Shown: positions 53,868 to 58,277 of the stretch, piece by piece
Numbering within the stretch: the stretch's first letter is position 1
How the letters are laid out: each line of letters starts with the position of its first letter
DNA from: Desulfurococcales archaeon
Lineage (GTDB): Archaea; Thermoproteota; Thermoprotei_A; Sulfolobales; Desulfurococcaceae
Reading direction: 5' to 3'
Length of the DNA: 64,000 nt
Assembly: GCA_027022365.1 (NCBI GenBank)
Contig: JALVYU010000026.1
Location: forward strand, 124,001 to 188,000
Made by a program: the position numbers and the translations under genes
Notes under the pieces: model-generated
What the model was told of the DNA's origin: nothing
Databases searched by the model: none
The model's input: only the letters and a program-made list of their open reading frames with translations

Positions 53868-55073
53868 TTGATACAGCGAAAACTAGCGGCAATGTTATTC
53901 ATAGTCACGGCCTACACTGGTACAGTTGCTTTTAGGTTGAGTATGCCAGCCATAGCTTTTTATGCAAAAAACGTTCTCGAAGCATCAATGTTAGGTATAG
54001 GTCTTCTTACTTCATCCTTCTTTATTGCCCGCGGAATCACGGCAATAATTGCGGGTGGTCTAACGGATAAGCTCGGATCAAAGGTGCTGGTTGCATCGGC
54101 AGCGGGTTTCCTATTGAATGCTCTCGTGGTACAGCTTTACCCCGCTGTACCCAACATATACTGGTTGCTCCTTCTGAGATTTGTACAAGGAGTACTAAAC
54201 GGCTTTGCATGGGTGCCTATACAGGCTCTCCTCGGATTTATAACTAGTAAGAACATACGTGGAAGAATATACTCGATCTACTTTATACTTGGAGCGCTTG
54301 GAGCCCTATCAGGTAATCTCTTATATTCGGTGCTCTCATCAGCGCCGCTAACACGTATACTTATGATCTCATCAATATTCTTCATTATCTCGGGCATCGA
54401 GATAGTACTCGCTAAATCAATGATCGGCGAGAACGTATCGATAGACGGTAGATTCGAGAAGCGCGGCGAGCCAAGCGCAAGACATGCTGTCCAAACAACC
54501 ATCCTGACAATCGTGCCGTTGATACTTGTTGTGCTTTCAAGCAGTATGTTCAGCTCGATACTGAAGGGTGATCTTATATATGTTTACCTCAACGTATACC
54601 TAGGACTATCCAGATCTGCTGCTTCCCTCATAATCGGGTTTGCAGGAGTGATCGTTCTCCCCGTGAACTATATGATCAGTTGGATAGCTGATAAGAAAAG
54701 CAGCAAAATAGCGCTAGAAATAGCATTGACTATGGGCATTCTAGGGGGATTGTTACTATCAACTAGAAATCCCCTACTAGCAGTACCCGGGCTCATCCTT
54801 GCAATGATAGGTGGATCAAGTATTGTACCTGTAACAAGGAAACTAGCCGTTTCGATTAGATCTTATGGTGGAACGAGTATCGGCCTAATAAATACTTCTG
54901 GAAACATCGGCAGCATGGCCGGATCAGCTATCGCAGGCTTATTATTTGATCGTCTAGGCAACATCTATCTCGCCGGAGAACTAGTATTACCTATGATACT
55001 AATGATTCTGCCCCTAGTTATCGCGATTGCCCTTGTCACATTAGCGTTAAAGGAGAATTTCTCTGAGAACTAA
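53868..55073 (+). CDS. MFS transporter (first)
   Basis: 401 residues, about twelve membrane helices. Family features: GGLTDKLGSKVLVASAAGF between helices 2 and 3, and a second half with WIADKKSSKIALEIA. Substrate not readable. TTG 53868 starts the protein. Neighbouring transporters suggest a nutrient uptake or efflux area. No other gene in its transcript. Confidence 0.85.
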   Translation: MIQRKLAAMLFIVTAYTGTVAFRLSMPAIAFYAKNVLEASMLGIGLLTSSFFIARGITAIIAGGLTDKLGSKVLVASAAGFLLNALVVQLYPAVPNIYWLLLLRFVQGVLNGFAWVPIQALLGFITSKNIRGRIYSIYFILGALGALSGNLLYSVLSSAPLTRILMISSIFFIISGIEIVLAKSMIGENVSIDGRFEKRGEPSARHAVQTTILTIVPLILVVLSSSMFSSILKGDLIYVYLNVYLGLSRSAASLIIGFAGVIVLPVNYMISWIADKKSSKIALEIALTMGILGGLLLSTRNPLLAVPGLILAMIGGSSIVPVTRKLAVSIRSYGGTSIGLINTSGNIGSMAGSAIAGLLFDRLGNIYLAGELVLPMILMILPLVIAIALVTLALKENFSEN

Positions 55074-55337: not shown

Positions 55338-56954
55338 TTGACGAATAGAGAATCCATTGGGTTCACCGAGGCTTTTAGTATAGGAGTAGGCGGCATGATT
55401 GGCGGAGGAATATTCGCTGTCCTTGGTCTCAGCCTTCAACTAGCAGGCGCTGCTGCGCCAATAGCCTTTCTTATTGCTGGCCTTATAGCATTAGCAACGG
55501 CTTACTCATATTCAAAACTATCTATTAGATACCCCAGCGAGGGAGGAACGATAGAGTACCTGGTAAGGGCTTATGGGAACGGCGTCTTCTCGGGCGGCCT
55601 CAACATAATGTTGCTTGCAAGCTACATCGTTATGATATCGCTCTATAGCTATGCCTTTGGAAGCTATGGAGCAAGCATACTTGGGGGCTCCATACTAGCT
55701 AAACACTTACTGGCAACACTGGCTATAGTCATATTCACAATAATCAATGCCTTGGGGGCGGTGATAACCGGGAGGACCGAGGACGCCCTTGTCTTGTTCA
55801 AGGTGGCGATACTCGTTCTAGTTGTTGGTGCTGGTTTCTCCTTCGTGGACTGGGGGCGGATGTCTCCCTCAAACTGGCCAGGTCCTGTTAACATCATAAC
55901 TGGTGGGATGATCATATTTCTAGCCTATGAGGGCTTCGAACTAATAGCCAACACTGCAAAGGATGTCAGTGACATAAAGGTTTTGCCCAAAGCATTCATA
56001 TCAGCCGTGGTATTCGTAACAACAATTTACGTCCTAGTAGCGATCGTCACGGCCGGTACACTGACCCCACAACAAGTCGCTGTCGCCAGAGACTATGCAC
56101 TAGCCATGGCGGCTAAACCGGCCCTCGGCGAGCTAGGCTTTCTACTCATAGTTGTAGCAGCTCTTGCATCAACTAGTAGCGCCATCAATGCTACGCTTTA
56201 CGGCACAGCAAGGGCTAGCTATATTGTCGCTAAATATGGCCAGCTACCAAAGATCGTTGAGAAGAGAGTATGGAGAAACGCCTACGAGGGACTAATACTG
56301 ATCAGTATCCTCAGCGTCATAATGGTTAACACTACAAGCCTAGAAGCAATAAGTGCGGCTGGTAGTGGAGGCTTCCTAACGATCTTCATGATGGTTAATT
56401 TCGCTGCCTATAAGCTCCGTAGAGAAACAGGCGCAAATAAATACATAACGTTGCTTGGAGGCTTCGCAACACTATTTGCTCTGGCCCTGCTCGTCCTTAG
56501 GATGATCCAGCTTGCCCCGACGAAACTATCCGTGTTCATAACGCTCCTCGTTCTCTCGTTCCTCATAGAATACATCATACGCCGCACGACAGGCAGGGAG
56601 ATATCGAAATACATAGACCCGGATCTCGAGAAGCGCGAGAAACACATAAGGAGCTGGCACGAGTGGATACACAGGGTTATCAAGGAGATCCTCGAGGAAT
56701 TCAGAGATGCGGAGATATATATTGTCGGAAGCATTGCTAGGGGAGAAATACATAGATCCCACGATGTCGACGTAATGATTGTTAGTAGTAAGGTCCCGGC
56801 AGACAAGAATGAGAGGCTAAAGAAGAAGCTAGAGCTCATGACTATTAAACCCCATCTTAGAGAGTACCCTGTCGACATACATTTGGTGAGGCCAGAAGAA
56901 AAAGAGGAGTGGCTCAAGAAACAACACAAAAAACTAGAATCAAAGGAAGCATAG
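55338..56954 (+). CDS. APC-family amino acid permease fused to a C-terminal nucleotidyltransferase domain
   Basis: 538 residues. Residues 1 to about 420 form an APC permease with about twelve helices (GVGGMIGGGIFAVLG in helix 1, FLAYEGFELIANTAKDV). A charged linker follows, then a soluble domain from about 445. It carries GSIARG (464-469) and HDVDV with Asp476 and Asp478, the G-S-x(9-12)-D-x-D core of minimal nucleotidyltransferases, followed by an acid-basic tail. TTG 55338 begins the protein. Possible regulatory nucleotidylation of the transporter or sensing of a nucleotide is inference. Confidence 0.85.
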   Translation: MTNRESIGFTEAFSIGVGGMIGGGIFAVLGLSLQLAGAAAPIAFLIAGLIALATAYSYSKLSIRYPSEGGTIEYLVRAYGNGVFSGGLNIMLLASYIVMISLYSYAFGSYGASILGGSILAKHLLATLAIVIFTIINALGAVITGRTEDALVLFKVAILVLVVGAGFSFVDWGRMSPSNWPGPVNIITGGMIIFLAYEGFELIANTAKDVSDIKVLPKAFISAVVFVTTIYVLVAIVTAGTLTPQQVAVARDYALAMAAKPALGELGFLLIVVAALASTSSAINATLYGTARASYIVAKYGQLPKIVEKRVWRNAYEGLILISILSVIMVNTTSLEAISAAGSGGFLTIFMMVNFAAYKLRRETGANKYITLLGGFATLFALALLVLRMIQLAPTKLSVFITLLVLSFLIEYIIRRTTGREISKYIDPDLEKREKHIRSWHEWIHRVIKEILEEFRDAEIYIVGSIARGEIHRSHDVDVMIVSSKVPADKNERLKKKLELMTIKPHLREYPVDIHLVRPEEKEEWLKKQHKKLESKEA

Positions 56955-57065: not shown

Positions 57066-58277
57066 ATGGCAAAGCCCAGGGGACTAGTTGTAGGCCTGGA
57101 CTTGCTGTTCATGAGCGTTAACTTCAGCGCACTAACACTGTTTGCCGCACTCAGTACGTATATATCAAGCTCTATCGGTATCGATAAGTTCACCGAGTGG
57201 CTGGCGTCAGCCGTTTATAGCGCTGGTATATTCGCCGCGTTTTTCATCGGCCACTCGAGATACACGGAAGAACATCCCAGGAAGACAGTGTTCATCGCAG
57301 CCATACTGGCGTCAATACCCCAGTTCCTCATACCATACTCCATAAATCCATGGGAAGTGGTCATCTTGAGATTCATACAGGGAATGGTTATGATGGCGTT
57401 GCCGATATTCTCATCACAGGTCGGACTATTGTTTGCTGAGGCTCGACCATTAGCGCTGGGCATAATATTGTCGGGAATATTCGTCGGAGGCCTAATAGGC
57501 TCCAGTGTAGGCCCTCTACTGGCAACAAGCATAGGCTGGAGAGCCACCTACATATTGTTCGGTATCGCAATGTTAATAGCGGCATTCATATGGATCGGAC
57601 TGACGCCGTGTGACGCACTACCGGTTCACAAAGAAGTTAAGACCGAGAAACGCGTTAGTGTATGGAAAGACCCGTTCACAATCCTCTGGGGCTTCTCGTT
57701 CTTCCCAGCAATATGGATAATCTTCACACTGGCACCACTGATCTCATTCATAGTTGAGAGTATGGGTGCCCCTTGCAGCGTTAATAAGCTGTCCTCAACG
57801 GTGCTTGAAGCATCCTATCTCAGCTGGTCTATAATCATAGGCGGAGTAGCATATGCCTTAGCCCGTCGCAAAACCGGGACGCCGCACAACATGTTCAATA
57901 CGTTTGCATCAGTACAGCTGTTCTGCTTCATAGTAACGTTCGTAGGAGTACTGATCGTTATGAACTCCCGTAACGTCGCTATGTTATTGGCGGGACTAGT
58001 ACTTGTAGCAATGATTCAGGGAACAGGCCCTACATTCTGGTCGGCGCCATCAACGGCGTACCCTGAAGACCTAGCGATAAGAGCAGGATATGCTCTCGGT
58101 TTGATCTCCAACTCTGCCGCATTGGTCGGCCCTATGACATCTGTCGCAGTGCACAGCGTCACTGCTGTTTGGGGTATAATACTGTTCATGGCGATACTCG
58201 GTGCGGTACTGACATTCATTGGTATGAAGATGAAACTACCCATCGAGAAATACGGTTCTGAAAACCGAGTAGAATGA
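57066..58277 (+). CDS. MFS transporter (second)
   Basis: 403 residues, about twelve helices. GHSRYTEEHPRKTVFIAAILASIPQ and LRFIQGMVMMALPIFSSQVGLLFAEARPLALGIILSG fit MFS; the second half holds LARRKTGTPHNMFN. Not closely similar to the first MFS protein by eye, so probably not a recent duplicate. ATG 57066 follows GGTTGATGAG. Substrate unknown. Confidence 0.85.
   Translation: MAKPRGLVVGLDLLFMSVNFSALTLFAALSTYISSSIGIDKFTEWLASAVYSAGIFAAFFIGHSRYTEEHPRKTVFIAAILASIPQFLIPYSINPWEVVILRFIQGMVMMALPIFSSQVGLLFAEARPLALGIILSGIFVGGLIGSSVGPLLATSIGWRATYILFGIAMLIAAFIWIGLTPCDALPVHKEVKTEKRVSVWKDPFTILWGFSFFPAIWIIFTLAPLISFIVESMGAPCSVNKLSSTVLEASYLSWSIIIGGVAYALARRKTGTPHNMFNTFASVQLFCFIVTFVGVLIVMNSRNVAMLLAGLVLVAMIQGTGPTFWSAPSTAYPEDLAIRAGYALGLISNSAALVGPMTSVAVHSVTAVWGIILFMAILGAVLTFIGMKMKLPIEKYGSENRVE

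Follow-up and report, generated by a model that had tools for sequence, protein, structure and literature searches.

An archaeal ApcT-type amino acid permease with a fused C-terminal MNT nucleotidyltransferase domain as a candidate regulator of uptake

The window, which is the whole stretch of 64,000 nucleotides from a heat-loving Desulfurococcales archaeon analyzed here, encodes an amino acid permease that carries a nucleotidyltransferase (NTase) domain as its tail. A single uninterrupted reading frame with a TTG start (55338-56954, + strand) gives a protein of 538 amino acids, in which an ApcT-type APC permease (residues 1-415) is joined through a linker helix (about 416-443) to a minimal nucleotidyltransferase (MNT; PF01909) domain (444-538). 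Pfam matched AA_permease_2 to residues 7-398 (E 8e-35) and NTP_transf_2 to residues 446-527 (E 2e-11 with the whole protein, 1.3e-12 with the tail alone). Both matches bear out the first-pass annotation of this DNA, which had read the gene as an APC permease fused to an NTase. We regard the tail as a probable on-board switch by which nutrient uptake is controlled. The explanation we favor, though only tentatively and at a little under an even chance, is that a domesticated MNT regulates uptake in cis, probably via nucleotidyl transfer; it would use NTP, act by AMPylation and control transport. The features discussed below are:

55338..56582, + strand: APC amino acid permease core, residues 1-415, about 12 TM helices, ApcT/TIGR00909-like (AA_permease_2, TIGR00909 and MjApcT matches)
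55800..55802, + strand: K155, TM5 lysine (alignment with the ApcT lysine)
56418..56420, + strand: R361, in the predicted cytosolic TM10-TM11 loop, a lead only (the residue tracks with an intact tail)
56583..56666, + strand: linker helix, residues 416-443, GRxIxxYxDxxLxxRExxxxxW (conservation; helices in the model)
56667..56951, + strand: MNT domain, residues 444-538 (Pfam NTP_transf_2, AlphaFold2 model, Foldseek)
56727..56744, + strand: GSIARG, residues 464-469, the nucleotide-binding GS motif (alignment of archaeal-type members)
56763..56771, + strand: D476-V-D478, the metal-binding pair that completes GSX10DXD (alignment of archaeal-type rows)
56874..56882, + strand: D513-I-H515, third acidic position and near-invariant His (alignment of archaeal-type members)

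The host assembly is fragmented into 44 contigs, which would speak for two genes having been joined artificially in assembly or sequencing to give the permease-NTase frame, a concern already raised in the first-pass annotation. However, the same fusion is present in about 80 loci from independent assemblies of several phyla. In the light of these full-length relatives the probability of a join is negligible, and we regard it as ruled out. With the tail as query, long frames carrying the fusion turned up across many genera within the order, and the full-length query gave 80 loci, nearly all matched over their entire length with 47-97% identity. The hosts comprise Desulfurococcales, Archaeoglobi, Hydrothermarchaeota, Thermodesulfobacteriota, Aquificota and Campylobacterota, while the MAG labels WOR-3, Micrarchaeota and Aenigmatarchaeota among them may be binning errors. 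Thus the domain pair, for which a search across Crenarchaeota had been suggested, is indeed conserved beyond this genome, but that scope was too narrow since Archaeoglobi and several bacterial phyla carry it too. One Aquificota tailed permease (L204, G540:C1:299655-300907) is split over two overlapping frames, which is a frameshift or sequencing error.

The catalytic core of the window tail is intact, as had been claimed from the sequence of this one protein. The earlier numbering of GSIARG from G464 and of the acidic pair D476 and D478 is right, and in the alignment G464, S465, D476 and D478 are spaced exactly as GSX10DXD, a motif that the bacterial homologs lack. The soluble part is present as described, but it comprises about 120 residues instead of 90 because the conserved linker helix is included. 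In addition, we found a third acidic residue, D513, that was absent from the earlier description and that aligns close to where Pol-beta NTases have their third carboxylate. The alignment of 65 archaeal-type members, in which close copies were left, has G464 in all 65, S465 in 56 (G in the other 9), D476 in 64 and D478 in 65. Residue 513 is D in 37 of them, H in 27 and R in one, and H515 is present in 62. Since His takes the place of the third carboxylate in 27 of the 65, canonical three-acid catalysis is not universal in this group. When the set was thinned at 85% identity, 53 rows were left, with D476 in 52, D478 in all 53 and G464 together with both Asp residues in 52. The archaeal tails have about 35-40% overall identity, and their conservation peaks at the catalytic residues. 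Across fused tails D and H alternate at the third acidic position, where HEPN-linked MNTs mostly have E; both groups share a near-invariant His two residues further on. Further divergent fused members outside the main alignment (L247, L248 and L249) have GG replacing GS and an intact DVD pair. In the antitoxin MntA, the GSX10DXD motif binds two Mg ions and the phosphates, D71 being an additional ligand (PMC7641770), and mutation of the motif abolishes AMP transfer (PMC7641770; PMC11586414).

Profile comparison and predicted structure both gave the Pol-beta NTase fold. On their own, all 61 archaeal tails match NTP_transf_2, and the profile of these 61 finds AF0614 (1ylq, E 1e-7), 2rff and MntA (5yep) among solved structures. 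The AlphaFold2 model of the window tail (pLDDT 86, pTM 0.76) has 1ylq, 2rff and MntA (7bxo) or MNT antitoxins as its best Foldseek matches. Because the domain is small, the Foldseek E-values are modest (best 2e-4), while the matched structures are consistently of one superfamily. Structure prediction, which had been named earlier as the place where an NTase assignment might fail, therefore returned an NTase fold whose best matches are solved MNTs.

Loss of the acidic pair among homologs, likewise named as a possible objection, is found on the bacterial side: the pair is missing from all 20 bacterial members (Thermodesulfobacteriota, Aquificota, Campylobacterota), whereas archaeal-type rows keep it with one exception. 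D476 is replaced by K, H, S or others and D478 mostly by H or N, and the GS motif is gone as well. Bacterial and archaeal tails nevertheless align with each other (hhalign 99.9%, E 2e-33), and a model built from bacterial sequences alone still has 1ylq and other NTases as best matches, with weaker E-values (best 7e-3). Judging from this model, the bacterial tails look like pseudo-enzymes in which the fold has been kept. The loci L086-L112 (e.g., L092:7255-7602) encode such putative pseudo-NTase tails without any catalytic residue, in which the linker and, in the model, the fold are retained. The linker helix is absent from tailless sister permeases and retained in live and dead tails alike: D427 is conserved in 98% of intact and 100% of degenerate tails, L430 in 98 and 100%, and E434 in 88 and 95%, which argues for mechanical coupling. 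Selection was estimated by Nei-Gojobori dN/dS, and the values are approximate because some pairs are near synonymous saturation. Between the window protein and two close relatives of the same genus we obtained 0.05 for the core and 0.08-0.11 for the tail, and for bacterial dead-tail pairs 0.03-0.07 and 0.10-0.33, respectively. The archaeal tail is strongly constrained, while the dead bacterial tail is under weaker yet real purifying selection.

The permease core matches AA_permease_2 and a solved member over the whole transporter and thus belongs to the ApcT-like APC permeases. Among solved permeases MjApcT (MJ0609, PDB 3gi9; E 1e-60 over residues 6-423) is the closest, and the TIGR00909 subfamily match has an E-value of 9e-42, below its curated cut-off. 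K155 aligns with the TM5 lysine of MjApcT in the sodium-2 position and is conserved throughout the 52 rows with intact tails, the 20 with degenerate tails and the 14 of tailless sisters; we take this lysine of ApcT to replace the sodium site. The core is probably a proton-coupled importer of the ApcT type with an amino acid as its substrate. If, as we assume, the APC fold has twelve helices and a cytosolic N-terminus, the tail lies on the cytosolic side. Two other APC proteins, encoded in 751-759-aa frames (G198:C29:41741-43075 and G201:C26:14039-15355), show about 30% identity and carry other long extensions that are perhaps other regulatory tails. In the alignment of intact, degenerate and tailless rows, no acceptor hydroxyl in the permease that tracks with catalysis and no cytosolic Tyr specific to intact-tail members is conserved. 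S/T144 was considered as nucleotide acceptor and rejected, as the position is V in four of five deep-branching intact members. R361 is found in 52 of 53 rows with a catalytic-type tail and in 1 of 20 degenerate rows, and the position is mixed in tailless ones. By analogy with R59 of HepT, which contacts the bound nucleotide in the MntA complex (PMC7641770), R361 might contact a nucleotide bound to the tail, although this single evolutionary contrast is a lead only.

From a phylogenetic perspective, the fusion arose once, and on this point the permease-core tree and the tail tree agree. In the core tree, from which tail columns were excluded, all tailed rows fall within one clade of 80 (SH-aLRT 99), and the intact, degenerate and absent states require 5 changes on the whole tree, compared to 48 when shuffled; one of these changes stems from L246, whose supposed tail is a low-complexity extension and not an NTase. 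Tailless sister permeases are present in Archaeoglobi, Thermodesulfobacteriota and Campylobacterota. Seven tailless permeases from Campylobacterota sit inside the tailed clade; the AU test rejects their forced exclusion (p 0.016), which implies that the tail was lost in this group. The best tree nests the bacterial rows among the archaeal ones (SH-aLRT 92-96). However, a topology with all intact members in one clade passes the AU test (p 0.12), and consequently we claim only the loss of catalysis and not the exact donor. In the tail tree a single branch (SH-aLRT 99) divides the 70 fused tails from the 21 free-standing relatives. Most simply, the domains fused once, catalysis was lost once on the bacterial side, and a single tail loss followed later.

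The closest free-standing relatives of the tail within the same order are MNTs of 110-120 aa. A HEPN-like gene lies immediately upstream of 20 of the 21 free-standing MNTs in the tail tree, usually overlapping, and all ten upstream neighbors that were scanned match Pfam HEPN. Free-standing MNTs and fused tails have the motif HP-x-[EDH]-I/L-H in common, which reads YYHPFEIH in standalone relatives. Since HEPN-linked MNTs are the nearest free-standing ones, the tail is related to the MNT half of HEPN-MNT modules, and the best reading of these sequences is that it would be a domesticated MNT derived from this type VII toxin-antitoxin-like group. Two variants of the module were observed: a second MNT fragment just upstream of a HEPN-MNT pair, making tandem modules (L114:1-267 and 537-1273), and a single 273-aa frame in which HEPN and MNT are apparently fused (L250:363-1181). 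Domestication of HEPN-MNT modules into protein-modifying regulators, for example modifiers of glutamine synthetase, has been proposed before (PMC3710099); in the main text of that HEPN survey the words "permease" and "transporter" were not found. No HEPN gene adjoins the fused gene in any locus examined, including the window, so the type VII arrangement of an MNT encoded beside a HEPN gene does not apply to it. The own genome contained neither a HEPN above the Pfam cut-off nor a HEPN-MNT pair; a marginal solo HEPN-like protein below that cut-off, PaREP1-like by eye and without an MNT neighbor, is encoded at L144:1312-1857. In the window, an MFS transporter gene (57066-58277) lies directly downstream of the fused gene, a position conserved only within the genus, and another MFS gene (53868-55073) lies upstream. 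Among 87 loci there is no conserved neighbor that would point to a substrate. This, together with the lack of a HEPN above cut-off in the own genome, favors a role in cis.

The first-pass annotation had suggested nucleotide transfer to the transporter or a partner protein, or nucleotide sensing, as possible roles of the tail. Regulation of uptake in cis could proceed as follows. The archaeal tail would bind Mg-NTP on the cytosolic side and pass NMP to a hydroxyl of a protein located at the membrane, be it the cytosolic face of the same permease, a neighboring protomer or a partner. Such a transfer would alter uptake according to the energy or nucleotide state of the cell, with the linker helix coupling the tail to the transporter. 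After transfer to bacteria, enzyme activity would have been lost and the tail would have persisted as a pseudo-enzyme until it disappeared in one clade. That both metal ligands have been kept across deep divergences within the archaea speaks for chemistry, while the persistence of bacterial versions without catalysis argues that part of the role is not enzymatic. The nearest rival to nucleotidyl transfer is nucleotide sensing, in which NTP, NDP or NMP bound via the GS motif and the Asp residues would move the linker helix without any transfer. A linker conserved in live and dead tails, a third acid that is often His and a bacterial fold that is kept in the model without catalytic residues would all fit a sensor. 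However, both metal-binding Asp residues are near-invariant in archaea (52/53 and 53/53), which is more than binding alone need require, and without the GS motif the bacterial tails probably no longer bind nucleotides. We consider a sensor without transfer unlikely, albeit to be taken seriously.

A structural or assembly appendage that serves stability or oligomerization, with the active site as a relic, is rather improbable. The bacterial tails, which lack every catalytic residue and yet are under weak purifying selection (dN/dS 0.10-0.33; core 0.03-0.07), and the Campylobacterota clade that dropped its tail agree with such an appendage, but in archaea a relic site should have decayed as the bacterial one has, whereas no tail residues are better conserved than the catalytic ones. 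The tail might also add a nucleotide to the entering solute and thereby trap it, as antibiotic-modifying NTases do. The NTase superfamily does modify small molecules, AAD(9) is among the fold matches of the bacterial tails, and the tail would lie on the proper side of the membrane for vectorial nucleotidylation. Nevertheless, the domain is minimal and is not followed by a substrate-binding subdomain, no conserved pathway gene is nearby, and ordinary tailless sister permeases exist, all of which makes a trapping function very unlikely. More doubtful still is a membrane-tethered antitoxin that AMPylates a HEPN toxin encoded elsewhere. The HEPN-linked MNTs as closest free-standing relatives and the one marginal, PaREP1-like HEPN of the own genome speak for it; against it stand the absence of HEPN genes beside all fused genes examined, the own genome without a HEPN above cut-off or a HEPN-MNT pair, and a fused clade separate from the HEPN-linked MNTs. 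In the most specific form of the favored cis regulation, which we consider possible with lower confidence than its general form, an antitoxin-type MNT would be the first known NTase to regulate an amino acid permease; in hyperthermophilic archaea the transporter would nucleotidylate itself or a membrane partner, and in bacteria the tail would have become a pseudo-enzyme regulator.

Both halves of the protein are known families, and transporters with a cytosolic regulatory domain are known as well, while the enzyme that serves as this domain here is unusual. We found no earlier description of the permease-NTase fusion in the open-access literature, with most subscription papers outside this scope, and domain databases probably list the pairing already since public genomes carry the fusion. 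Little is known about how archaea control their nutrient transporters after translation, and a fusion of single origin makes AMPylation of a transporter directly testable. Live archaeal tails, dead bacterial ones and tailless sisters represent a natural experiment on the recruitment of an antitoxin enzyme as transporter regulator. In these genomes, annotations as "amino acid permease" conceal the enzyme domain.

Compared to known systems, APC permeases with UspA-like tails represent transporters bearing a cytosolic signaling domain. The transceptor CbrA, like the fused protein, is reported to combine a solute transporter with a cytosolic signaling domain. We know of no transporter-enzyme or transporter-sensor fusion with an NTase domain. 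MjApcT resembles the window core over residues 6-423 and shares the TM5 lysine, but ends after the permease and has no NTase tail. AF0614 (1ylq) and the Sulfolobus protein 2rff, the best sequence-profile and fold matches of the tail, are in contrast stand-alone solved proteins of unproven function, whereas the window MNT is the tail of a transporter. The antitoxin MntA of the type VII HEPN-MNT system shares GSX10DXD and the fold with the window tail; the window MNT, however, is fused to a transporter and has no HEPN partner, and the third acidic residue is D or H in the fused tails. GlnE and GlnD are Pol-beta type NTases linked to nitrogen regulation, which modify glutamine synthetase or PII. 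They offer a possible functional parallel to the tail (PMC3710099) at marginal sequence similarity, and they are large soluble multidomain enzymes, unlike the minimal tail borne here by a transporter.
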